From: Dawidia soli
GTDB taxonomy: Bacteria > Bacteroidota > Bacteroidia > Cytophagales > Cyclobacteriaceae
Assembly: GCF_018598185.1 (NCBI RefSeq)
Contig: NZ_JAHESC010000016.1
Coordinates: 1-64,000, forward strand
Length of the DNA: 64,000 nt
Direction: 5' to 3'
The notes beneath the pieces are model-generated. The model ran no database searches, had not been told where the DNA came from, and worked only from the letters and a program-made list of their open reading frames with translations. Of this stretch, positions 15,989 to 27,470 are shown one piece after another; position 1 is the stretch's first letter, and each line of letters begins with the position of its first letter. The position numbers and the translations under genes are program-made.

Positions 15989-16080
15989 TTGGGGCTGCGG
16001 TTGGTAAAGATACAAAAACGGGTGAGATGCAGCGAAGGATAAAAAATGGTCCGGGTTTCCCCGGGCCAGGCCGGGGTAAC

Positions 16081-16145
16081 AGTGTGAGTGTGAGCGCGAA
16101 GAAGAGACGGACGCCCTTCTTCGCGCTCGCGCTCACACTCACGCT
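16081..16145. repeat. Long GTGTGAG-type palindrome at the 3' end of the amylase gene
   Basis: The arm agtgtgagtgtgagcgcgaa followed by gaag (16081-16104) is complementary to 16116-16145, with a six-base CGCTCG insertion in the second arm and an 11-base loop. The TGA stop of the amylase gene lies inside the second arm. A closely related palindrome sits at 26648-26716, also directly at a gene end. It may be a terminator or a dispersed REP-like element. Confidence 0.7.
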
Positions 16146-17527
16146 GCTTTCAGTACCAGGTACTGGTAGGGCGCCAGGGCGACGGTCGTCGTAAGGGTAA
16201 CGGGGGTGCTGGTGAGGGCGTTGGTCCAGGTGGTGTTTTGAACGGTGGCGTCGAGGGGGTACGTGATGGTGGTGTTACGGGTGTTGACCAAGACCAGGTA
16301 CTCGTCGCTGCCGCTCGTGCGTTTGAAGGCGGCGATGTCGTTGTGCGTAAACGATGTTAGCGTGCCGGTCGTGAAGGCCGGGGAGGCATGGTATACCGCG
16401 AACAGTTTTTCGTACTGTTGCTGCATGGACGGATTGGCGGTCCAATCGATGGGATTACGGGTGAAGAAGGGCAGGTTGGTCTCCTGGCCAACTTCCTGAC
16501 TGCTGTACAATAACGGCACGGCACTGGTAAAGATCGTGATGACCGATGCGGACAGGGCGCCGTCGTTGCCGTGGAAGAGGGCGACGGGCGTTTCCTCGTA
16601 GGCGGATACGTCGTGGTTCGTGGTGTAGCGCAGTTTGTGCGCGCCGGCGGGAATGCTGTTGTATTCGGCCTGGTGGGTGGTAAAGATGGACGTGGCGGCT
16701 TTGCCGTCGCGGTAGACTTGCTTGAGGTTGGTGTAGAAGTCCCACGCGTAGTTCATCTGGAAGCCGGCGGTGAAGTTGTCGGCTTTGCCGCCTTCGGCCA
16801 GGTAGATGAGCTTGCGGCCTTTGATGGCTTTGAGCTCGTCGAGGGCTTGTTTCCAGAAGTCGGTCGGCACGAAGTCCACGGCGTCGCAGCGGAAGCCGTC
16901 GACGTTGGCTTCGAGTACCCAATACTTCATGGCGGCGATCATGGCCTTGCGCATGTCGGCGTTGTCGTAGTTCAGCTCGGCCACGTCGTTCCAGTTGGTG
17001 CCGGGCGGGATGATGATCTCGCCGGCGGCATTCTGCGTATACCACGATTTGTTTTGCATCCACGGGTTGTCCCACGCGGTGTGGTTGGCCACCCAGTCGA
17101 GGATCACGGCGATGTTACGGTCGTGCGCCTTTTGTACCAGCTCGCGCAGCTTGTCGAGGTTGCCGAACTCGGCATTCACCTCGAGGTAATTTTTCACCGA
17201 ATACGGTGAGCCCAGGCCCCCGGCGGAGCGCACCTGTCCCACGGGGAAGATCGGCATCAGCCAGAGGGTATTGATGCCCAGGGCCTTGATCTTATCAAGC
17301 CGGTCGATCACCCCCTGAAAGTTACCGGCCTGGCTGAACGCCCGCAGGTTGACTTCGTAGAGCACGATGTTCTGCGGGTCGGGCACGCCGGCAAAGGGTA
17401 CGCCGTATTGTTTGGGGCCATCGTCAACTGGTTCGGGTTGCGGGGCATTGTCTTCGCTGCCGCAGGCCAGCAACATGCAGGCCATGAAGCAGATCTTTTT
17501 CATCATCATCAAAGTCATGGTTATCAA
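16139..17527 (-). CDS. GH13 alpha-amylase lipoprotein
   Basis: A 462-residue surface or periplasmic lipoprotein; lipobox LLAC with Cys at residue 22. The shorter starts at residues 7-9 (MKKICFMACMLLAC) are as likely. The GH13 regions are all visible: region I DWVANH (about 144), region II GFRCDAVDF with nucleophile Asp215, region III YLAEGG with acid/base Glu245, region IV TTNHD with Asp306. A small C-terminal beta domain ends in PYQYLVLKA. It should hydrolyse alpha-1,4-glucans. It is the last gene of the SusC-SusD-SusE operon (11 bases after SusE) and would feed oligosaccharides to that transporter. Confidence 0.93.
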   Translation of the reverse strand: MITMTLMMMKKICFMACMLLACGSEDNAPQPEPVDDGPKQYGVPFAGVPDPQNIVLYEVNLRAFSQAGNFQGVIDRLDKIKALGINTLWLMPIFPVGQVRSAGGLGSPYSVKNYLEVNAEFGNLDKLRELVQKAHDRNIAVILDWVANHTAWDNPWMQNKSWYTQNAAGEIIIPPGTNWNDVAELNYDNADMRKAMIAAMKYWVLEANVDGFRCDAVDFVPTDFWKQALDELKAIKGRKLIYLAEGGKADNFTAGFQMNYAWDFYTNLKQVYRDGKAATSIFTTHQAEYNSIPAGAHKLRYTTNHDVSAYEETPVALFHGNDGALSASVITIFTSAVPLLYSSQEVGQETNLPFFTRNPIDWTANPSMQQQYEKLFAVYHASPAFTTGTLTSFTHNDIAAFKRTSGSDEYLVLVNTRNTTITYPLDATVQNTTWTNALTSTPVTLTTTVALAPYQYLVLKAA

Positions 17528-17537
17528 TACAAAGAGC

Positions 17538-19193
17538 TTATGGATTTTTCAGTACGGTATAGGTATAGAGATAGGGCGCCGCGGACCGCGTGAAGTCGAC
17601 GCGGACGGTATAGCTACCCGGCTCGGAAATGGTGATCGCGGCATCGGTCGTGGTGAGCGTGCCTTGCAGCTGGTCGCTGGCGGGGCCATAGTTCACCTCC
17701 CATCCATTGTTGGCGCGGAACTTCAAGGCGCCGTTCACCAGGTTGACGGTCTTGCTCCACGTTTTGCTGGCGGCATCGTAGGTCATCGGCGTAGAGCTAT
17801 CCCATCCCCCCGGCGTGGCGGTGCCGATCAGCCCCCACGTATCGATCTTCTTCAGGTCGTACGTCAGCGCTTCGATATTCACCAGCACGCGGTAATACCC
17901 TGTCTGCGACACATCGATGCCGGCCGCGGCGCCATCTGTGCTCAGTACATTCGCGCCGGCGCTGCCATAGTTGACGTGGCCCCAATCGGGAGCGGAGGTA
18001 AACTTGATCCAGGTCGGAGCCGGTATGTTTACATACCCTTCAAAGATCTTGTCGTTGGTGCCGGGCAGGGCATAGAGCGTGAGCGCATCGGGTTGTGACG
18101 GATCGCCGCCGGAGGCCTGGTAGCCACCGGGGACCCACAACGTAGTGGGTGTGCCTACGTCGGAATTGCGGATGACCTGGTACGTATACTGATACGGTGC
18201 CGCGCCCCGGTTGAAGTCGAGCACGACGGTGTAGTTGCCGGGTGAGTGTATGTTGATGGCCGCGTCGGTCTGAGCCAGGGTGCCGGCGAGCGCATCGCTG
18301 TCGGCGGGGCCGTAGTTAATGTCCCACCCGTCGTTGGCGCGGAACTTCAGGGCGCCGCTGCCCAGGTCGGTCGTGACACGCCAGGTGTGCGTAACCTTGT
18401 CGTACTCCATGGCCGTGGAGCTGTTCCATCCGCCGGCGGTGGCGGTTCCGATCAGACCCCAGTTCGTTTTTGTTAGCTGATAGGTAAGGCCGGTGAGTTC
18501 GGCGTTGACTTTGTAATATCCCTCTTCCGCCACGGAAATAGCCTGGGCACTTCCGGCCGCGGCCAGTGTACCGGCCGATGCCCCCTGGCTATACGTTGTG
18601 CCGGGGCACGTCGGGCTTTCGGCAAAGCGGAAAGACTGGTCATTCTCCAGGTATACATATCCTTCGTATAGCGCGGGCGTCGTGGTGGCATAGATCGCCG
18701 GCGCGCTTTCGCCTCCGGCCAGCCACAGGGCGACGGGCTGCTCGCTCCACGGTGTGATGGTAAACGTACGCACGTCGGAGGTCTGCTGAAATTTGCCGTT
18801 GAGCGCCGACGTGATGCGGAGCTGTACCGTGGCCTCGCGGTGCGGGGCCAGCTTCAGGTCGCCGACCAGCTTGGCGTTGAGCTCGGACAGCGTCACGGTA
18901 AAGGTGTTGCGCGAGGTTGATCCCAGCGCGACGGGCTGCGCAAAGTCGTGGCAGGCGGCATCGACCTCCAGGGTATAGGTCACTTCGGTGGTTACACCGT
19001 ACGCGGCCTTGTCCCACCGGATCTCGAGCGGTTCGTTCAGGCTTTCTGTGGTGATCGGCCGCCCCAGCTCGGTGGGGGAAGTGGTAATGACGGCGGGCGT
19101 GGCGTCGGCTGTCAGTTGCACGCGGGTCTCGTCTTTTTCACACGCTGTGAAGAAGAACAAAGCGCTACAGATCAGTATCGATATTCGTTTCAT
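17538..19193 (-). CDS. susE: SusE/SusF-type outer-membrane starch-binding lipoprotein
   Basis: A 551-residue lipoprotein; lipobox FFTAC with Cys near residue 18. The N-terminal Ig-like domain (about 20-150) resembles SusE_N. Three related carbohydrate-binding modules follow. Two of them are near-duplicates: WGLIGTATAGGWNSSTAMEY with ALKFRANDGW (about 250-300) and WGLIGTATPGGWDSSTPMTY with ALKFRANNGW (about 455-505). The conserved Trp, Asn and Tyr residues fit starch-binding SusE/SusF modules. It follows SusD by nine bases in the same operon. Gene symbol is by family role, not by close identity with the Bacteroides protein. Confidence 0.88.
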   Translation of the reverse strand: MKRISILICSALFFFTACEKDETRVQLTADATPAVITTSPTELGRPITTESLNEPLEIRWDKAAYGVTTEVTYTLEVDAACHDFAQPVALGSTSRNTFTVTLSELNAKLVGDLKLAPHREATVQLRITSALNGKFQQTSDVRTFTITPWSEQPVALWLAGGESAPAIYATTTPALYEGYVYLENDQSFRFAESPTCPGTTYSQGASAGTLAAAGSAQAISVAEEGYYKVNAELTGLTYQLTKTNWGLIGTATAGGWNSSTAMEYDKVTHTWRVTTDLGSGALKFRANDGWDINYGPADSDALAGTLAQTDAAINIHSPGNYTVVLDFNRGAAPYQYTYQVIRNSDVGTPTTLWVPGGYQASGGDPSQPDALTLYALPGTNDKIFEGYVNIPAPTWIKFTSAPDWGHVNYGSAGANVLSTDGAAAGIDVSQTGYYRVLVNIEALTYDLKKIDTWGLIGTATPGGWDSSTPMTYDAASKTWSKTVNLVNGALKFRANNGWEVNYGPASDQLQGTLTTTDAAITISEPGSYTVRVDFTRSAAPYLYTYTVLKNP

Positions 19194-19202
19194 GGCGTCG
19201 GC

Positions 19203-20807
19203 TTAATATTCGGGATTTTGGTCCAGGTTGGTATTGATGGCACGGTCCACCAGCGGGATGGGGAAGAGATCGAAATGCGCCGGGGTGGCAGCGCCGGCTT
19301 TGACGTTGCCTTTCCAGTCCCACAGGTAGTCGTCGCCGGTGAAGACGCCGAAGCGGATCAGGTCGGTGCGGCGTTGTGCTTCCCAGTGAAGCTCGCGGCC
19401 ACGCTCGTCGAGTATGAACGGCAGCGTCAGGTCGCCGTCGGCCATGTTACCGCTGTTGTCGCCGTAGGCACGCTGGCGCAGCAGGTTGATATAGTGCACA
19501 GCGGTAGCACGATCGCCACCGGTGCCCCCGCGGAGCACGGCTTCCGCATACAGGAGGTATACATCGGCCAGGCGGAACAGCGGGAAGTCGGTATCGACAA
19601 AGGTGTCGTTCTTGCCACGTGCGCCCGTGGACGTGACGTTGCGGAACTTACGGCTGAGGTAGCCTTCGCGAAAGTTGGTGACGTTGGTGATGTCGAGCGT
19701 CTGGCCGTCGGTGAAGAACAGGGCGCGCCGGTCGGTTTCGCCGGAAGGATCGGCAAACTTGTTTACGAAGGCGTTGGTAAAGCGGCTGCCTGCCCAGCCA
19801 CCCGACGCAGCGATGCCGATGTCGTTCACCAGGTCCAGGTCGCCGCCGGCGGCGGCGTGTATGATGAACGTCATGCCGCCGTAGCTACGGCCGTTGTCGC
19901 CGTCTTCGGCAATGGGAAAGATGATCTCCTGGCGCAGGCGGTCGTTGTCGGCGAGGAACAGGCTGCTGTAGTCGTTCGCCAGGGAGAACGCGCCGGCGTT
20001 GACGATCTCGTTGCAATAGGCAATGACTTGTGTATAGTGGTCGGTGCCGGCGTTGTCCAGGTATACACCGGCGTTGACGTGCAGTTTGGCCAGCAGCATC
20101 CAGGCGGCGGCGCGGTCGGCACGGGCATATTCGTTCGTACCCGGCGCGGCCAGCGCCGGCAGGATGGCGGTCAGCTCCTGATCGATGTACGCAAACAGGT
20201 CGGCCCGTTTGATCTGCGGCGGCAGGTAGGCGCCCGGCGCGTCCGCTTCGGTAACAAAAGGCACGTTGCCCCACAGGTCGAGCGCGAAGTAATAATACAG
20301 CGCGCGCAGGAACCTGGCCTCGGCAATATACTGCTCCACCTCTTCGCGCAGCCGGGCTTCCAGGCCGTCTACGCGCGCGGATGCGGCCCGGATATATTCA
20401 TTGCAATACGCGATATTGATAAAGACGCGCTGGTAGAGCAGCTGTACATAGAAGTTCTGCTCCGACCAGTTGTGCGAATGGTATTCGATCAGCGAGGCAT
20501 CGCCCCAGGCGGAGATGCATTCATCGGTCGTGATCTCCTGCGCGCTCCAGTACATGCGCATGAACGACGTGGTGCCTTCGTCGGGTGCCGACAGCTCGGG
20601 CTGCCCATACTCCCCACGTTGGCCGGTCAGGGTCATGGCGCCGTAGAGCTTGGCCAGGAATTCTTTGTAGGACGCGGGATCTTTGAAGACCAGCGTGGCG
20701 GTCGACACCCGGGTGTTCAGGGGCTCGGTGTCCAGGTCGCCGACGCAGGAGGCCAGCAGGGCGATGGAGAGCAGGGCGGCATAGGCCCGGAATATAGTGC
20801 GTTTCAT
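19203..20807 (-). CDS. susD: SusD/RagB-family nutrient-binding lipoprotein
   Basis: A 534-residue lipoprotein with lipobox LLASC (Cys about 21). The SusD TPR-like helices are present: EEVEQYIAEARFLRALYYYF, then DLWGNVPFVTEAD. The C-terminal half carries PLFRLADVYLLYAEA and the WEAQRRTDLIRFGVF signature of RagB/SusD. It caps the SusC barrel and binds the sugar at the cell surface. It lies 18 bases after SusC and nine before SusE. Confidence 0.95.
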   Translation of the reverse strand: MKRTIFRAYAALLSIALLASCVGDLDTEPLNTRVSTATLVFKDPASYKEFLAKLYGAMTLTGQRGEYGQPELSAPDEGTTSFMRMYWSAQEITTDECISAWGDASLIEYHSHNWSEQNFYVQLLYQRVFINIAYCNEYIRAASARVDGLEARLREEVEQYIAEARFLRALYYYFALDLWGNVPFVTEADAPGAYLPPQIKRADLFAYIDQELTAILPALAAPGTNEYARADRAAAWMLLAKLHVNAGVYLDNAGTDHYTQVIAYCNEIVNAGAFSLANDYSSLFLADNDRLRQEIIFPIAEDGDNGRSYGGMTFIIHAAAGGDLDLVNDIGIAASGGWAGSRFTNAFVNKFADPSGETDRRALFFTDGQTLDITNVTNFREGYLSRKFRNVTSTGARGKNDTFVDTDFPLFRLADVYLLYAEAVLRGGTGGDRATAVHYINLLRQRAYGDNSGNMADGDLTLPFILDERGRELHWEAQRRTDLIRFGVFTGDDYLWDWKGNVKAGAATPAHFDLFPIPLVDRAINTNLDQNPEY

Positions 20808-20825
20808 AAGCGTGTGGTCTTGGGG

Positions 20826-23783
20826 TTAGAACTGACAATTCAGGTTCAGGAAGTAGGACCGGGTGCGGGGAAAGAAGTTGTTGTCCAGACCGCCCGACAC
20901 TTCGGGATCGAGGCCTGAATAGCGGGTGATCACAAAGGCATTCTGCACCCCCACCCCTACGCGCACCTTGAGGCGCTCGCGATACAGGTTCTCCCAGGTG
21001 TAGCCCAGGTTGATGTTGTCCATGCGGAAGAAGGAGGCATTCTCGATATAGAAATCGGAGAAGCGGGTGTTGAGGCCGGTGGCGAATTTTGTCTTGTCGG
21101 CTTGTGTGCTGACGTTGGCCAGGAACTCCTGCGAGTTGTACAGCGACTGGTACGTGCTGTTGGCGGCCACGTTGTTATACACATAGTTGCCGAGGTTGGC
21201 GCGGCCCATGAAGGAGAAGTCCCAGTGCCTGTAGTTAAGCCGCGAGTTGATGCCCATGTACACGATCGGGTCGGGCTGTTTGTAGCTGTACAGGTCGCCG
21301 GTGTTGACGGAGCCGTCGCCGTTGCGATCGACATATACATCTTCCACGGGCTTTCCCTGCGCATCGTACACCTGCTGATACACATAGTAGGCCGAACGGG
21401 GATACTCCACGCGGTGCGCCTGGATGGTGCCCGCCGTGGTACCGCCCACGCCGCCCGTCGGCACGAAGAAGTTCAGGTCGTTGTTGAGCGTCAGCCGGGT
21501 CACTTCGTTCTTGTTATAGGTGATGTTATAGCCTGCGGTCCACTGCACGTCGTCGGTGGCGATCACGTCGGCCTGGATGTTGAGCTCGATGCCGCGGTTT
21601 ACAATGCTGCCGATGTTGCTGATCACGCTGCCCGTAAAATTAGTACCGGCCGCCGGGGCGATGTAGGAGATCAGGTCGGTGGATTCCTTGCGGTATACGT
21701 CCAGCGAACCGGTGATCCTGTTCTGCCAGAAGCCGTAGTCGATGCCGGCGTTCCACGTCTTAGCCGTCTCCCATTTGATCCGCTGGTTATAGCCGTCGGG
21801 GCGCAGGGTGTTATAGTAGACGTCACCGAACGGATAGCGCGCGGCGTTGTCGCTGCGGGTATAGGTGGCGATGTAGGGATAATCGTTGCCGACGATGTCC
21901 TGCTGGCCGGTGACACCGTACCCCAGGCGTAGCTTCAGATCCGACACGGTGCGGCTGTTCTTCAGGAAGCTCTCCTGGTTGATCTTCCAGCCCAGCGCTA
22001 CCGATGGGAACAACCCCCAGCGCACGTCTTTGTCAAAGCGCGACGTGGCGTCGTTGCGCAGGGTGGCGGTAAGCATATACTTGTCGCGGAAGGTATAGTT
22101 GGCGCGGCCGAAGAAGGACAGCAGGTAATATTCTGTTTCGTAGACGTTGACGCGGGTGGCGGCTTCGCCGGCGCGGGTCATGGTCGAGTCGGCCCCTTCG
22201 CTATAGAAGTGTGCCCACGAATACCCGCCCATGACATCGAGCTTGCCGGCCCGCGACGGCAGCTCTTTACTGTAGTCTACATAGAAGTCGAGCAGCTGGT
22301 TTTTGGCGGTGGCCTCGTAGGGGTTCAGGCGGCCCTGGGCTACGGCGGGCAGGTATATCCACTGCGTACTGTCGGCCACGTTGTTGTGGCCGGTCGTTTG
22401 CTGATAGTCATAGCCCAGGTTGAGCGTGGCGCGCAGGCCTTTTACAAAGGGTGCGCTGTATTCAAACCGGGCGTTGCCGATGCTGCGCTTGACGATGGAG
22501 GTGTTGTCGGTCAGGTCGAGACGCGCCACGGGGTTGCCCGGCGCCAGGTCGATGCTGGCACCGTTGCGGGTCCACGTGGTATACCCGCGCCAGCCGGGGC
22601 TGTAGACGGGCTTGGTGGGATCGTAGGCGATGGCATCGCCGATGGCGCCCTGATCTGCAAAATTGTTGGTGTTGTACATGCCTTTGACGTTGACCGCGAT
22701 CTTGAGCGCGCCGTCGAACAGGCTGGGGTCGAGGGCGATGGAGGCGGTGGTGCGCTCGAAGTTATAGGTCTTTAAGATCCCGTCGGTGTTGTTATAGCCC
22801 ACCGACACCCGGTACGGTACTTGATAGGCCGTGCCCGACACGGTCAGGTTGTGATCCTGGCCGACGGCGGCGTCTTTATAGATCTTGTCCTGCCAGTCGG
22901 TGTTGGCGGTGCCCAGCAGCGCGAGCGCCTGCGGGTTGGCGGCATACCGCTCGCGCACCAGCGCGCGGAACTCGTCGGCGCTGTAGACGTCTACTTTGCG
23001 CGGCGCGGTGGCGACTGTAGCGGTAGCGTTATACGTCACGGAGAATGCGCGGCTGCCGCGCTTGGTGGTGATGAGGATGACGCCGTTGGATGCGCGCAAG
23101 CCGTAGATGGCAGTGGCGGAGGCATCTTTCAGCACGGTGAAGGTCTCAATATCGTTGGGGTTGATGGTCGACAGGATGTTGGGTGAGCCGCCCAGGTTGG
23201 TGTTGGAGATCGGCACGCCGTCGATGACGATGAGCGGGTCGTTGCTCGCGCTGAGGGACGAGCCGCCGCGGATGCGGATGGTCGATGTATTGCCAGGCGC
23301 ACCGCTGGTGGACGTGATGGCCACGCCGGCCACTTTGCCCATGAGCAGCTCCTGCGGCGAGTTGACCACGCCTTTGTTGAAGGCGCGAGCGTCTACTACT
23401 GCCAGCGACCCCGTGGCGTCGGCTTTTTTAACGGTGCCGTAGCCCACGACCACCACTTCGTTGAGGGTGGCGACGTCGGGCTCGAGCGCGATGGTGAGAC
23501 TTGTCTGGCCGGCGACGGGTACCTCGGTCGTGGCGTACCCCACGAACGTGATGACGAGCGTCGCGTCGTCATGCACGGTGATGCTGAACTTTCCCTGGGC
23601 ATCGGTGACGGTGCCGTTGAGGGTACCTTTTTCCAATACGTTTGCGCCGGGAATGGTGGCGCCGTCGTCGGTGGCCGACACGGTGCCCGTGACGGCGACG
23701 GTGCGGGTCTGTGCCCAGGCATGGGAGCCCAGCAGGCAGAGCAGCAGCAGTACCTTGCCTGTGAGCCGAGAGATTCTGTTCAT
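20826..23783 (-). CDS. susC: SusC/RagA-family TonB-linked outer-membrane transporter
   Basis: A 985-residue outer-membrane protein. MNRISRLTGKVLLLLCLL is a signal peptide, which decides for ATG 23783 over 23894. A carboxypeptidase-like regulatory domain (about 35-100) comes next, then the plug with LNEVVVVGYGTVKKADATGS, the RIRGGSSLSASNDPLIVIDG SusC signature and IYGLRASNGVILITTKRG. The barrel ends in NLNCQF with a terminal aromatic residue. With SusD it forms the TonB-driven maltooligosaccharide importer. First structural gene of the operon. Upstream (23843-23852) is the palindrome CAAACGTTTG, a possible regulator site. Confidence 0.95.
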   Translation of the reverse strand: MNRISRLTGKVLLLLCLLGSHAWAQTRTVAVTGTVSATDDGATIPGANVLEKGTLNGTVTDAQGKFSITVHDDATLVITFVGYATTEVPVAGQTSLTIALEPDVATLNEVVVVGYGTVKKADATGSLAVVDARAFNKGVVNSPQELLMGKVAGVAITSTSGAPGNTSTIRIRGGSSLSASNDPLIVIDGVPISNTNLGGSPNILSTINPNDIETFTVLKDASATAIYGLRASNGVILITTKRGSRAFSVTYNATATVATAPRKVDVYSADEFRALVRERYAANPQALALLGTANTDWQDKIYKDAAVGQDHNLTVSGTAYQVPYRVSVGYNNTDGILKTYNFERTTASIALDPSLFDGALKIAVNVKGMYNTNNFADQGAIGDAIAYDPTKPVYSPGWRGYTTWTRNGASIDLAPGNPVARLDLTDNTSIVKRSIGNARFEYSAPFVKGLRATLNLGYDYQQTTGHNNVADSTQWIYLPAVAQGRLNPYEATAKNQLLDFYVDYSKELPSRAGKLDVMGGYSWAHFYSEGADSTMTRAGEAATRVNVYETEYYLLSFFGRANYTFRDKYMLTATLRNDATSRFDKDVRWGLFPSVALGWKINQESFLKNSRTVSDLKLRLGYGVTGQQDIVGNDYPYIATYTRSDNAARYPFGDVYYNTLRPDGYNQRIKWETAKTWNAGIDYGFWQNRITGSLDVYRKESTDLISYIAPAAGTNFTGSVISNIGSIVNRGIELNIQADVIATDDVQWTAGYNITYNKNEVTRLTLNNDLNFFVPTGGVGGTTAGTIQAHRVEYPRSAYYVYQQVYDAQGKPVEDVYVDRNGDGSVNTGDLYSYKQPDPIVYMGINSRLNYRHWDFSFMGRANLGNYVYNNVAANSTYQSLYNSQEFLANVSTQADKTKFATGLNTRFSDFYIENASFFRMDNINLGYTWENLYRERLKVRVGVGVQNAFVITRYSGLDPEVSGGLDNNFFPRTRSYFLNLNCQF

Positions 23784-24265
23784 ACGGTTTGGGTTAGATG
23801 GTTGTTTAGCGTTGCGCAATCGCTGGAGCGAGGGGTACGTTTCAAACGTTTGCACGAGAGAACAAAGAACGCGGCCCGGGGCGGGTCGCTTCAACTCGTC
23901 GGAGTAAAATCTAGAAAAAAGATGGCGTGTATAATGGTTAATTTGCTGTTGTACAACCGTTTGTGGAGCGGGTGGGGCGGGGAAAATCTTGGGGTTTTAA
24001 AGGCGTTTTTTGCGTGCTGTCGGAGACAGTACCGACGGGCGGGATTTTCGCGCATGACAATTTCGAGGCACGCGCGCAAATTTGTTACGCTCCTTCAGGG
24101 CTTGAATCATCGTATTATCGGTTAACCCAGCCTCCGCTGTCGCTTCAGCCTGGCTGATGTGTGACGCCCTTTCAGGGCTAGTTGAAGTGAGAAACGCATT
24201 TAAATACTCTGCATAAACCATCACCAGTCGTACCATCGACGGTCGTTACGATCGCTGGTCGTTAT
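23784..24265. other. Intergenic region upstream of susC
   Basis: 482 bases between the regulator stop and the susC start. No protein-like ORF is seen. It holds the susC promoter region, the palindrome CAAACGTTTG at 23843-23852 and the REP-like repeat at 24087-24179. Confidence 0.5.
24087..24179. repeat. CCTTCAGGGC-flanked REP-like element
   Basis: Two similar decamers, tccttcaggg(c) at 24091 and ctttcaggg(c) at 24169, point the same way and flank an imperfect CCAG...CTGG hairpin (24126-24153). This layout matches a dispersed repeat type I remember from many Bacteroidota genomes, here degenerate. The identification is from memory. Confidence 0.4.
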
Positions 24266-25864
24266 TTATAGCGCGCGGATGGCCATGATTTGTTTGTCAA
24301 ACTCGTCGTTGGGCAGGATCGATTTGTTGCGGAGGCGGGTCTTGTAGGTGTAGATGGTCGTGACGGAGTAGTCCAGGATGCGGGCGATCTTTTCGTGATC
24401 GTGGATGCCCATGCGGATGAGGGCGAAGATCCGCAGCTCGGTGTTCAGCAGCTGGCCCTCCTTTAACACCAGGCGGTCGTCTTCTTTAAAGAATGTGTTG
24501 AAGGCGTGGACGAAGTCGGGGAAGAGCTTCAAAAAGACCTTGTCGAAATTGTGGTAGAGGTCTTCACGCTCCTTTTTAATGTTGATGCTTTCGATCGTGA
24601 AGCGCATGTCCTCCAGCTTTTTGGTCATGAGCTTGAGCTCCAGCGCTTTTTTGAGCGCATCCAGGCGTGTGATGTATTCGGCCGTGGTGGTAAAATAATA
24701 CCACACGTACTCTTCTTTGATCTTGTTGGCGTCGCGCAGCTGGTGATTGGTTTCCGTCAGCACGTGGTTGGCGTCGGAGATGGTCTTTTCGGCCGCCCGC
24801 AGTTTTTGGAATTGCTTGTAGATGATGATGGCAAAGCCGATGGTAACGACCGACAGCAGGGTGATGATGGTGGAATAAAACATCAGGATGCGCCGCCGCG
24901 ACTCGACCAGACTGAGCTGTTTGCCTTCGATGATCGGAAATACGGCCGCCACTTGCACCTTGCGGTGGCGTGCACCGTAGTAGTTGGCGTCTTCCATCGC
25001 GATCTTGACATATTTATAGGCTGCGTGCACGTCGCCTTCCTTATACAGCATATCCGCCAGGTTGAGGGTGGCGAGTGTTTCTTTGGTCGACGCGCGGATG
25101 TCGGCGATGGCCGCGCGGATCAGCATCTCTTTGGCCCTGGCCGGCTCGTTGCTGTAAACGTAAATAAAGCTGAGCGTGCTGGCGGCCACGGCAAACGCTG
25201 CGTCGCCGAGGTCGTGTTGCGCGATGAGCTCTTCGAATGCCCGGCGGGCCGCGGGTATTTCGCCGAGGTGCAGGTGTTTGAGCCCTTTCATCAGCCGGTA
25301 CAACGGTTGGTCCGTGCGTACCAGGGCCATGGCCGAGTCGATGTAGGCATTTCCCTGGCGGGTGTATTGCGCGCTGTAAAAGTTGTCGCGGTTGAAGTCC
25401 GACAGATCGTAGCTGGTGCGGGCGCGGAGAAAATAGTACGCCGCACGCAGGCTGTCCGTGAGACCGGGCGTGTGCAACGTGCGCAGGGTGTCGAGCGCTT
25501 CGTTGAACAACCCCGACGAGACCAATATAAAGCCGAGGTTGATGCGCGCGGCGGCGATCTTGCCGGGGTCGTGCAGGTAGCGTGCCAGGTGTTGCAGCTT
25601 GCGGGCGTAGATGAACGCGGAGTCGTAGATGAACGACTTATACTCTTCGTAAATGGCGTTGTACAACGCGTACTGCCGCACGGAGTCGTTCTTGCCGAGC
25701 TGTCGTCTATAGCCTTCGATGCGGGCGAGTTTTTCTTTTAAAAATACATCACGCTTTTCGATGGTGGTGTTGAGCTGCTGCAACAGGCTGTCGATATCGG
25801 GGGCTGCGTGGGCATTGCTCAGGGACACGACGATACAAAAACCTATTGTCAGGAAAAACCGCAT
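24266..25864 (-). CDS. SusR-like TPR sensor-regulator (DUF6377 type)
   Basis: A 532-residue protein. MRFFLTIGFCIVVSLSNAHA is a signal peptide, which favours ATG 25864. The periplasmic part (about 25-310) is a series of TPR-like helices; a membrane helix lies at about 330-350 (TIITLLSVVTIGFAIIIYKQ), followed by a coiled coil. The C-terminal 150 residues end in a LuxR-like helix-turn-helix: RMGIHDHEKIARILDYSVTT and IYTYKTRLRNKS. This layout fits SusR/DUF6377 regulators that sense oligosaccharides in the periplasm and activate Sus operons. It lies directly upstream of susC on the same strand. Confidence 0.82.
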   Translation of the reverse strand: MRFFLTIGFCIVVSLSNAHAAPDIDSLLQQLNTTIEKRDVFLKEKLARIEGYRRQLGKNDSVRQYALYNAIYEEYKSFIYDSAFIYARKLQHLARYLHDPGKIAAARINLGFILVSSGLFNEALDTLRTLHTPGLTDSLRAAYYFLRARTSYDLSDFNRDNFYSAQYTRQGNAYIDSAMALVRTDQPLYRLMKGLKHLHLGEIPAARRAFEELIAQHDLGDAAFAVAASTLSFIYVYSNEPARAKEMLIRAAIADIRASTKETLATLNLADMLYKEGDVHAAYKYVKIAMEDANYYGARHRKVQVAAVFPIIEGKQLSLVESRRRILMFYSTIITLLSVVTIGFAIIIYKQFQKLRAAEKTISDANHVLTETNHQLRDANKIKEEYVWYYFTTTAEYITRLDALKKALELKLMTKKLEDMRFTIESINIKKEREDLYHNFDKVFLKLFPDFVHAFNTFFKEDDRLVLKEGQLLNTELRIFALIRMGIHDHEKIARILDYSVTTIYTYKTRLRNKSILPNDEFDKQIMAIRAL

Positions 25865-25985
25865 AAAGATTGGATAGAGTCTGGATCCACTGCGGTCCAC
25901 CGGCGGGTAAAACGAAGCAGCTCAGACAAGGTAGCAAGCTTTGCGCAAAGGGACAAGTGGCAAGAACGGATGGCTACCCGTCTGC

Positions 25986-26363
25986 TCACTCCTTGGGCGG
26001 CGTGCCGACGATGAACACCGTGCCGGCGGGATCCTGGATCCAATGCATGTCTTTGGGAATTTCCTCGAACTCGTCACGGGTATCGACGCCCCTGGATGCC
26101 AGGTACTCGGTGGCCGCGGCGACGTCGGGCGTACGAAGCTCGAGCCATACTTCACTGTGCGTATAGTTGTCGACACAGTCGAGCCACACGATGTTGCCCC
26201 CGAACTTTACTTCGTGTGTGCGTGATACGGTGGGGTTGGTGATGGGCTTCTCGACGATGTCGAGCCTCAGGATGTCGCGGTAGAAGGCTACTGTCGCTTC
26301 GTACTTGTTCCTGGGAATCTTGAGGGCGATGTTGACGCCGCCCTGGAATGTCGGTCCTTGCAT
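25986..26363 (-). CDS. VOC (glyoxalase/bleomycin-resistance fold) protein
   Basis: A 125-residue single VOC domain: an N-terminal IALKIPRNKYEATVAFYRDI strand-helix, the GGNIVWLDCVDNYTHSEVWL beta hairpin, TEYLASRGVD helix and the terminal HWIQDPAGTVFIV strand. The metal-ligand positions are only partly occupied (Glu in HSEVWLEL). Substrate unknown; family members include lyases, dioxygenases and antibiotic-binding proteins. It lies 18 bases after the small ORF at 26382. Confidence 0.85.
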   Translation of the reverse strand: MQGPTFQGGVNIALKIPRNKYEATVAFYRDILRLDIVEKPITNPTVSRTHEVKFGGNIVWLDCVDNYTHSEVWLELRTPDVAAATEYLASRGVDTRDEFEEIPKDMHWIQDPAGTVFIVGTPPKE

Positions 26364-26381
26364 GGATATCGGGGGTTGTGT

Positions 26382-26618
26382 TTAGGGTGCTAACGGATTT
26401 TGTCCGGGAGTGTTGTGTATTGACGTACAAAGTGTGATTTCTGCCGGGGGTGATTTTTGGGGGTGATGCGTGATGTAGAAGAGGCCGTTAACGGTGGCGA
26501 TACAGGTCAGCACGCAGACGGGGCATTTGGGGATGAGTAGGGCCAGGGGGAATAATATTGCCAATGCTGTGCGACGCGTGCTTTGTTTTTTGAGAGTTGT
26601 GGGGTTGCAACAGTTCAT
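26382..26618 (-). CDS. Small membrane protein with a KCPVC motif
   Basis: A 78-residue ORF with one or two membrane segments (about 18-50). The motif LLIPKCPVCVLTCIATVNGL resembles a group of small Bacteroidota membrane proteins with PKCPxC in the first helix. Cys residues also occur at the N-terminus (NCC). It is close to and on the same strand as the VOC gene. Real-gene status is probable but not certain; function is unknown. Confidence 0.45.
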   Translation of the reverse strand: MNCCNPTTLKKQSTRRTALAILFPLALLIPKCPVCVLTCIATVNGLFYITHHPQKSPPAEITLCTSIHNTPGQNPLAP

Positions 26619-26647
26619 AGGTAATCCAGGTTACGACGTTACCATAT

Positions 26648-26716
26648 ACAGTGTGAGTGTGAGAGCGAGAGCGAAGAAAAACGGTGTGTTCGCTCTCGCT
26701 CTCACGCTCACACTGT
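26648..26716. repeat. Near-perfect 28-base palindrome at a gene end
   Basis: The arms at 26648-26675 and 26689-26716 match in 27 of 28 positions and enclose a 13-base loop. The core is GTGTGAGTGTGAGAGCGAGA. The palindrome begins one base downstream of the TAA of the DUF899 gene. It is related to the palindrome at 16081-16145, which holds the same position relative to the amylase gene. Confidence 0.8.
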
Positions 26717-26717
26717 T

Positions 26718-27470
26718 TTAATGGCAGCAGTTGCTTTTTGTCATGATGGTTTCGTATTTATCGTGGTGGCGGACCCAGTCGGTCAGATCTTTGTTGGGGC
26801 CGTTTTCGTCGCGGCCTTTGGGGGTCATGTCGAGGTATGCGTATGCACCCACGAGGGATTCGTCGCCGCGGCCGTAGGATGAGTAGGTGTGGTAGACTAC
26901 GCCGCTGTCGTCTTTGTAGAAGACGCTGGTGCCGGGCAGCTCTTCGCTTTCGAACGGGATCATGTTGTAGTTATAGTATACTTTTCCGCTGGCGTCCGAC
27001 TTGGGGAACGACACGTGGAAGTCGAAGTTGAAGTCGCTTTCGTACGACGATACCCACTTGAATTTCCAGCCCATGCGTTTTTTGAAGGCTTCGATCTCGG
27101 GCAGCGTGGCGCGTGATACCGACACGAAGCTGACGTCGTGGTGCATGAGGTGCTGGTTGGCGCTGTCGGCGTGGTCTGCTTTGAACGAGCAGCCCACACA
27201 GCCTTCTTCCCAACCCGGACCGAACATAAAGTGCTGAATGATGAGTTGGCTGCGGCCGTCGAACAACTGGCTGAGCGTTTCCTTGCCGTGGGGGCCGTCA
27301 AAAATGTATTCCTTATCAACTTTTACCCAGGGCAGAGCGCGGCGTTGACGCGCGAGCTCGTCCTGGAGGCGCATAAGCTCTTTTTCCTTTTCGAGGTATT
27401 TGCGGCGGGCGGCGAGCCACTGCTCCTGGGATACCACCCGGGGCCCGGGCTCTGATCGGTGTATGTGCAT
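26718..27470 (-). CDS. DUF899 thioredoxin-fold protein
   Basis: A 250-residue soluble protein. The N-terminal charged helix (WLAARRKYLEKEKELMRLQD), then LPWVKVDKEYIF, and the central HFMFGPGWEEGCVGCSFKAD segment with paired Cys are the DUF899 signatures. WVSSYESDFNFDFHVSF and YLDMTPKGRDE near the C-terminus also match. The fold is thioredoxin-like; the CVGC pair could be redox active. Physiological role is unknown. Confidence 0.88.
   Translation of the reverse strand: MHIHRSEPGPRVVSQEQWLAARRKYLEKEKELMRLQDELARQRRALPWVKVDKEYIFDGPHGKETLSQLFDGRSQLIIQHFMFGPGWEEGCVGCSFKADHADSANQHLMHHDVSFVSVSRATLPEIEAFKKRMGWKFKWVSSYESDFNFDFHVSFPKSDASGKVYYNYNMIPFESEELPGTSVFYKDDSGVVYHTYSSYGRGDESLVGAYAYLDMTPKGRDENGPNKDLTDWVRHHDKYETIMTKSNCCH

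Follow-up and report, generated by a model that had tools for sequence, protein, structure and literature searches.

Two long palindromes, at positions 16080–16146 and 26648–26716 of a 64,000-nt stretch of the Dawidia soli genome (the window; positions 1 to 64,000 of contig NZ_JAHESC010000016.1, assembly GCF_018598185.1), are probably two copies of a lineage-specific family of intrinsic terminators that share their sequence. The class of element would be ordinary, namely intrinsic and often two-way terminators, and its form unusual, a dispersed family with a common sequence. An earlier note, made from the letters alone, had described the two palindromes as related, as placed at gene ends, and as a mobile or dispersed hairpin used as a terminator. 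The window is part of contig C30 of our copy of the assembly (7,476,949 bp in 122 contigs, 98.5% completeness), and the whole assembly was searched for further copies.

Alignment and folding of the copies defined a 52-nt hairpin core, which consists of an A-tract, ACAG, a purine-rich 5' arm of GNGNGA hexamers, an apical part, a 3' arm ending in CTGT, and a T-tract (consensus, AAAAACAGnGTGAGTGTGAGAGCGAGAGCGAACACACTCACnCTGTTTTTT). The apical part is close to GTGTGAGMGCGARAGCGAACAC and similar throughout, and reads GCGATNACA instead of GCGAACAC in several copies of distant genomes. Many cores have T5–T8 directly after the hairpin, and the core folds with z scores of −4.9 to −7.6 in five of six copies. 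A GC-rich hairpin with a T-tract directly after it is the mark of an intrinsic terminator, and it was found in the family core and at 23 of the 40 places described below; the view in the earlier note that such a stem is not a standard terminator was wrong for the core. Among 26 aligned cores, 90.1% of the stem cells were paired, compared with 28.7–64.6% when slid, and 21 cells were changed on both sides, compared with 8.6 ± 2.0 in shuffles. In the long palindromes, the T-tract is followed by the 5' arm in reverse complement (TTCTTCGCTCTCACACTCAC...), and therefore a hairpin is possible on each strand. These sequences look like a core overlapped with its own reverse complement, which would make a two-way terminator.

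The core recurs across the genome. An 18-nt arm pattern with up to two mismatches had 77 matches, compared with 24 for the reversed control, and BLAST of the 69-nt copy at 26648 returned 54 matches at E ≤ 10, the nearest other place being 85% identical. A covariance model built from eight copies (R1) gave 44 matches at E ≤ 1, which correspond to 26 places by manual count. These 26, together with 14 weaker or half copies from the pattern or BLAST searches, make up the 40 places; outside them lie the weakest BLAST rows, most places that match only at two mismatches, and a stretch at C26:152345 (L075) that does not belong to the family. All 37 arm-pattern matches at 0–1 mismatch fell within the 40 places, mostly in hairpins. 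A recurring unit was visible in the extracted copies, and 28 own-genome copies had a median similarity score of 44, compared with 16 for single-base-shuffled copies. A known RNA family was rejected, since no hairpin in the 13 loci searched matched Rfam above the gathering score, which only four tRNA matches exceeded; sub-threshold matches of the hairpins to microRNA models were taken as chance. These results support the assignment of the palindromes to a dispersed family of related hairpins at gene ends, far beyond the two copies to which the earlier note allowed that they might be confined. Separately, a short hairpin, CCCGAT..ATCGGG, recurs inside or beside some copies (L072, L046, and L206; by eye also L038, L064, and L188), and a script search for it in 40 loci gave four matches, three of them near family copies.

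The placement of the copies was assessed with a simple open reading frame (ORF) caller and ARAGORN. The flanking genes were convergent at 19 of the 40 places, tandem at 15, divergent at 5, and unclear at 1, and in the window 10 of 46 adjacent ORF pairs were convergent. At twenty-five of the places, the 3' end of a facing ORF or tRNA is no more than 30 nt away, measured to gene ends and not to transcript ends. Since an initial terminator scan called 74 of 150 random windows, which was too lenient, a strict test for a hairpin with TTTT was used in its place. With the strict test, 23 of the 40 places were positive on at least one strand, compared with 32 of 300 random windows, and 9 of the 40 on both strands, compared with 0 of 300. 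These nine places look like two-way terminators, and two-way action at the remaining places would follow by extension.

The orthologous sites of close relatives provide a further view of the hairpins. In the genome taken as Parachryseolinea silvisoli QH1ED-6-2 (G002; our own genome is G000), R1 gave 46 matches, or 37 places by manual count. A family copy was found at the orthologous G002 place for fourteen of the 40 places and for the 16081 copy, fifteen in all, the remaining 25 lying outside the comparison; the flanks aligned at 68–91% identity, mostly above 77%. For both window copies, the hairpin stands at the same gene end in G002, with T-A/C-G and A-T/C-G double changes: ACAGTGTG/CACACTGT of the 26648 copy corresponds to ACAGCGTG/CACGCTGT, and GTGAGTG of the 16081 copy corresponds to GTGCGTG on both arms. 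In 11 orthologous stems with 99 pairs, 59 pairs were the same, 15 were changed on both sides, 7 on one side, and 18 were broken, and since a wrong register in three comparisons (C27, C28, and C62) was judged to account for many of the broken pairs, only clear double changes were used. These results indicate that hairpins are retained at the ends of orthologous genes although their sequences change. The only orthologue of the DUF899 gene next to the 26648 copy among the six other members of the genus is in G002, and this site is therefore comparable no further. The alpha-amylase orthologue (69% identity) of the genome taken as Pseudochryseolinea flava SDU1-6 (G006) ends, by eye, in another hairpin with a T-run.

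The tRNA-Gly/tRNA-Leu(UAA) locus could be compared among seven genus members. The family hairpin is present in two of them. In the other five, its position is taken by hairpins whose sequence differs from that of the family, three of which were folded; a GGACAG...CTGTCC hairpin is common to four of the five, which therefore also have the ACAG/CTGT base. This swap of hairpins is the best evidence that the family members would act as terminators. Together with the T-tracts and the gene orientation, it bears out the terminator use proposed in the earlier note at the level of the family, as an unproven role.

The orthologous copies were also ranked by similarity among 37 G002 copies (36 of the 37 model places and the 16081 orthologue). 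In 13 pairs, the ranks of the orthologous copy were 19, 14, 21, 11, 18, 37, 25, 25, 2, 2, 31, 1, and 7, with a mean of 16.4, close to the value of 19 that would be expected if orthology had no effect. Since orthologous copies resemble each other no more than they resemble other copies, the consensus is kept while individual copies turn over. It may be kept by fast change within constraint or by homogenisation between copies.

In a wider set, R1 matched 8 of 59 genomes at E ≤ 0.01, the own genome included; with sets of more than 40 genomes this search applies stricter filters, and it scored only the best candidates, so that a zero is no proof of absence. Among the five genus members other than G002, only G006 was matched (3 matches). 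Family copies behind tRNA genes were fetched four times in G002 and twice in G000, and weaker R1 matches placed the core behind tRNA-Met and tRNA-Lys in G012 and behind the transfer-messenger RNA in G008; at both places of G025 and the one place of G046, no tRNA was called beside the R1-matched hairpin. A scan of named genomes with a 21-nt arm pattern (19 fixed bases, about two chance matches expected) found 38 stretches, 18 in P. silvisoli and 20 elsewhere, 16 of the latter labelled Bacteroidota and 4 not (two Streptomyces, an Acidobacteriaceae metagenome-assembled genome (MAG), and a Dojkabacteria MAG). In six of these 20 (L133, L135, L139, L148, L157, and L163), the hairpin stands directly behind a tRNA called by ARAGORN, in L157 with the reverse strand of the palindrome coming after the tRNA, and in a seventh (L168) it stands behind an apparent tRNA 3' end not called by ARAGORN. 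Behind tRNA genes of distant Bacteroidota, the 52-nt layout recurs together with the GTGAGNGCGARAGCGA part. As a side observation, at L228, L231 (G507), L121 (G006), and L123 (G025) the hairpin stands behind a fragment that resembles a tRNA 3' end, with no tRNA called, as at an old integration site.

A second model, R2, built from 26 cores, matched 10 of 118 genomes of a family-level sample at E ≤ 0.001, the own genome included. In eight of the nine others (one not), the match lies directly beside a tRNA gene (Arg-CCG, Leu, Met, or Ala), and the three with E < 1e-8 are all tRNA-linked. The frequent position of the core behind tRNA genes suggests, but does not show, that the family arose from tRNA terminators. 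A phylum-wide tRNA terminator was dropped as an explanation, the distribution being patchy: a 16-nt arm pattern matched 4 of 395 sampled genomes including the own, and the other three matches were chance-like (2 control matches), none near a tRNA. Viral spread was likewise rejected, the exact 21-nt arm pattern having 0 matches in the viral collection.

Alternatively, the copies could have converged, without common descent, on an order-wide frame of A-tract, ACAG...CTGT, and T-tract with purine-rich GAGCGA arms. In an order-level sample of 389 other genomes, R2 gave matches in 11, all of them weak (best E, 5e-7); most were to hairpins with a different sequence, and none of the 11 loci examined had a tRNA call. 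By eye, 9 of the 11 (L249–L258 and L115) are terminator-like hairpins with that frame or with GAGCGA repeats. These hairpins, alike in their ACAG/CTGT base or GAGCGA arms and otherwise different, are what convergence would produce, as is the finding that orthologous copies resemble each other no more than other copies do. However, the recurrence of the whole 52-nt layout with its GTGAGNGCGARAGCGA part behind distant tRNA genes, and the excess of copy similarity over shuffled copies, speak for a shared sequence, and we regard convergence as unlikely.

The two window copies can now be described individually. The 26648 palindrome has 28-nt arms at 26648–26675 and 26689–26716, which are complementary at 27 of 28 positions (96%) around a 13-nt centre. 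The 16081 copy has 24-nt arms at 16081–16104 and 16116–16139 (92%), with an alternative register at 16080–16099 and 16127–16146 (95%), and R1 matches both copies on both strands. With up to two mismatches, the stems are 30 bp (26648) and 24 bp (16081) long, compared with a longest stem of 19 bp in 40 first-order Markov resamplings of the window. RNA folds of both copies on both strands had z scores of −6.3 to −10.8, and the full 26648 palindrome had folding energies of −51 and −55 kcal/mol on its two strands. The arm motif AGTGTGAGNGYGAG (one mismatch) has 8 matches in the window, all within the two palindromes, compared with a shuffle mean of 0.08. These results confirm that both palindromes are real, beyond chance, and mutually related, as first described. 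Their position at minus-strand gene ends was also borne out: the 26648 palindrome lies one base from the TAA stop codon (26718–26720) of the DUF899 gene (26718–27470, minus strand), and the 16080–16146 palindrome contains the TGA stop codon (16139–16141) of the alpha-amylase gene (16139–17527, minus strand), which adjoins a SusE/SusF-like gene (17538–19193).

On its coding (minus) strand, the 26648 copy reads TAAAACAGTGTGAGCGTGAGAGCGAGAGCGAACACACCGTTTTTCTTCGC, an inner hairpin with T5 (the complement of 26677–26681), and the R1 core match to it spans 26675–26720 (36.8 bits, E = 6.9e-5). On the plus strand, the same copy has CTG-TTTTAA, in which the first T is part of the arm, and there the hairpin is followed by a T-tract as in an intrinsic terminator. 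Past the complete palindromes on the coding strand stand ATATGG and TTACCCC. The earlier statement that no T-run follows is thus correct for the complete palindromes on that strand, and it overlooked the T5 inside the 26648 copy and the TTTT on its plus strand. Just downstream of the 16080–16146 palindrome, a separate, ordinary terminator-like hairpin with T6 is found at 16041–16068 on the minus strand (−14.4 kcal/mol, z = −2.1).

A number of observations weigh against a family of terminators with a shared sequence. For the two window copies on their own, the case for termination is weak: the inner hairpin at 26648 is weak (−11.8 kcal/mol, z = −1.8) and fails the strict test on the coding strand, the 16081 copy has T-runs of at most 2 on its coding strand and fails on both strands, and an ordinary terminator-like hairpin stands beside it. 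In the genome, 17 of the 40 places, 16081 among them, fail the strict test on both strands, five are flanked by divergent ORFs, a facing 3' end is missing at six, and the crude caller puts six within an ORF. The 40 places were chosen by similarity with hand-set spans, the ORF cut-off was 80 amino acids (aa) at the places and 100 aa in the window, and the random windows, drawn from the whole 64 kb, are a weak control. In the covariation counts, 14 of the 21 double-changed cells fall at a single pair, the number of pairs with both-side change (4, compared with 2.8 ± 1.0) was reached by 124 of 500 shuffles and that of further pair types by 52 of 500, neither being outstanding, and 18 of the 26 cores lack pairing at the outermost apical position. 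Among the named stretches outside P. silvisoli, 13 of 20 have no tRNA beside the hairpin, and several matches in the family-level sample have weak E values (1e-6 to 1e-3) and may represent different tRNA terminators to which R2 fits.

Some of these points would suit hairpins that mainly shield the 3' ends of mRNAs or tRNA precursors from exonucleases, with termination left to Rho or a neighbouring terminator. The stems are very stable, many places lack a strict terminator call, the 16081 copy has a separate terminator alongside, and the copy at L037 comes after an earlier T-tailed hairpin. The T5–T8 right after the hairpin in many cores and the substitution of the family hairpin for other terminator-like hairpins at the tRNA-Leu locus, however, point to termination itself, and a mainly protective role appears less likely still than convergence.

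That the hairpins are REP-like (repetitive extragenic palindromic) elements moved by a RAYT (IS200/IS605-like) transposase, their gene-end position being tolerated insertion, is very unlikely. The copies are dispersed, palindromic, mostly extragenic, and present in tens, and as dispersed extragenic palindromes they resemble the REPs and bacterial interspersed mosaic elements with RAYT transposases of PMC2817692, whereas here no cognate transposase was found, the stems are longer, T-tracts are present, and the copies are diverged. According to that source, REP elements have a GT(A/G)G head next to the palindrome; such a head is absent from the consensus here, which begins AAAAACAG (judged by eye, with no systematic flank search). 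A search for a RAYT-like transposase, as the earlier note had advised, found four PF01797 (Y1 transposase) matches in the genome, all bordered by other repeats, and a script did not find the GNGYGAGNGYGA motif in their 3.2–3.3-kb loci (about 1.5 kb on either side); RAYT mobility was rejected for these four. Moreover, the 26648 copy has 85% identity to its nearest other copy, G002 has copies at 15 of the 40 places as well, and the family hairpin at the tRNA-Leu locus substitutes for another hairpin and is not inserted alongside one. Inspection by eye of 14 aligned orthologous pairs revealed no target-site duplications or empty sites, and at one locus a replacement is seen. Of the phrase "mobile or dispersed hairpin", the second adjective is supported and the first is not.

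The Y1 loci have repeats of their own. RAYT-like genes at C40:75883 and C87:5154 of G000 (L079 and L081; frames of 203 and 183 aa) are bordered by a dispersed repeat with ACTGGCGCCGGTCTTAGCCCG and GACCGGTGCCCCGTATGGTGGCGGTCTCC, with which they likely form a RAYT-repeat pair. A RAYT-like gene at C32:11242 (L080; 189 aa frame) is bordered by another repeat, CATCTGGCGCAAGT...ACTTGTGCC...GGTAGGCAGTTTGCAACTGCC, and an IS200-like transposase gene at C26:32767 (L078; 155 aa frame) by repeats of the type AGCCCTGTAAGGGCGTAACA. At L029, L049, L057, and L061, half or whole hairpin arms lie directly beside REP-like repeats, as if the repeat had replaced or entered one arm.

A DNA uptake signal, in which inverted pairs of uptake sequences double as terminators as in Neisseria and Pasteurellaceae, hardly merits consideration: such signals, as described in PMC1852404, likewise have short shared motifs paired in inverted orientation where genes converge, but the 77 pattern matches in 7.5 Mb (control, 24) are far from hundreds to thousands, and those at 0–1 mismatch lie within the 40 places, mostly in hairpins and not as lone motifs.

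Published work offers close comparisons. In PMC1852404, bidirectional intrinsic terminators have adenines on one side and thymines on the other side of the hairpin and lie between convergent genes. The present family resembles the intrinsic terminators of that source in its hairpin and T-tract at gene ends, its A/T-flanked two-way hairpin, and its convergent-gene position; it differs in the single sequence and similar apical part common to tens of copies, in the length of some stems (24–30 bp), and in its overlapping two-way layout. With the uptake-signal terminators in the same source it has in common a repeated motif whose inverted pairs form terminator hairpins, enriched between convergent genes, whereas it has about 40 places and few lone motifs, and copies of the uptake motifs generally number 1,000 or more. 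Families of repeated stem-loop sequences, a part of them proposed as terminators, are also described for 40 bacterial genomes in PMC2267715, which names neither Bacteroides nor Cytophaga and which excluded sequences within tRNA and rRNA by a filter.

If the palindromes belong to a terminator family, as we favour, transcription of the hairpin would be followed by a pause of RNA polymerase in the T-tract and by release of the transcript, and the hairpin would also cap the RNA 3' end. In the long form, a hairpin on each strand would allow two-way termination, often between convergent genes. In the window, the copies would act at the ends of the amylase and DUF899 genes, and the 16081 copy, which lacks a T-run, would probably work in combination with the adjacent ordinary hairpin. 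More speculatively, and with a lesser though not negligible chance of being right, a terminator family may replace others at gene ends, be homogenised genome-wide by conversion or template switching, and have reached the ends of protein genes from tRNA terminators within a single lineage, and its conserved apical part may be recognised by a host factor.

Our searches, confined to open-access literature, found no account of this hairpin family. Intrinsic terminators are usually regarded as unrelated, quickly replaced sequences. With tens of sequence-sharing terminator-like hairpins in one genome, and with different hairpins at the tRNA-Leu locus of relatives, the origin, the spread, and the likeness of terminators become testable, and the candidate two-way terminators may serve as tools for Bacteroidota.

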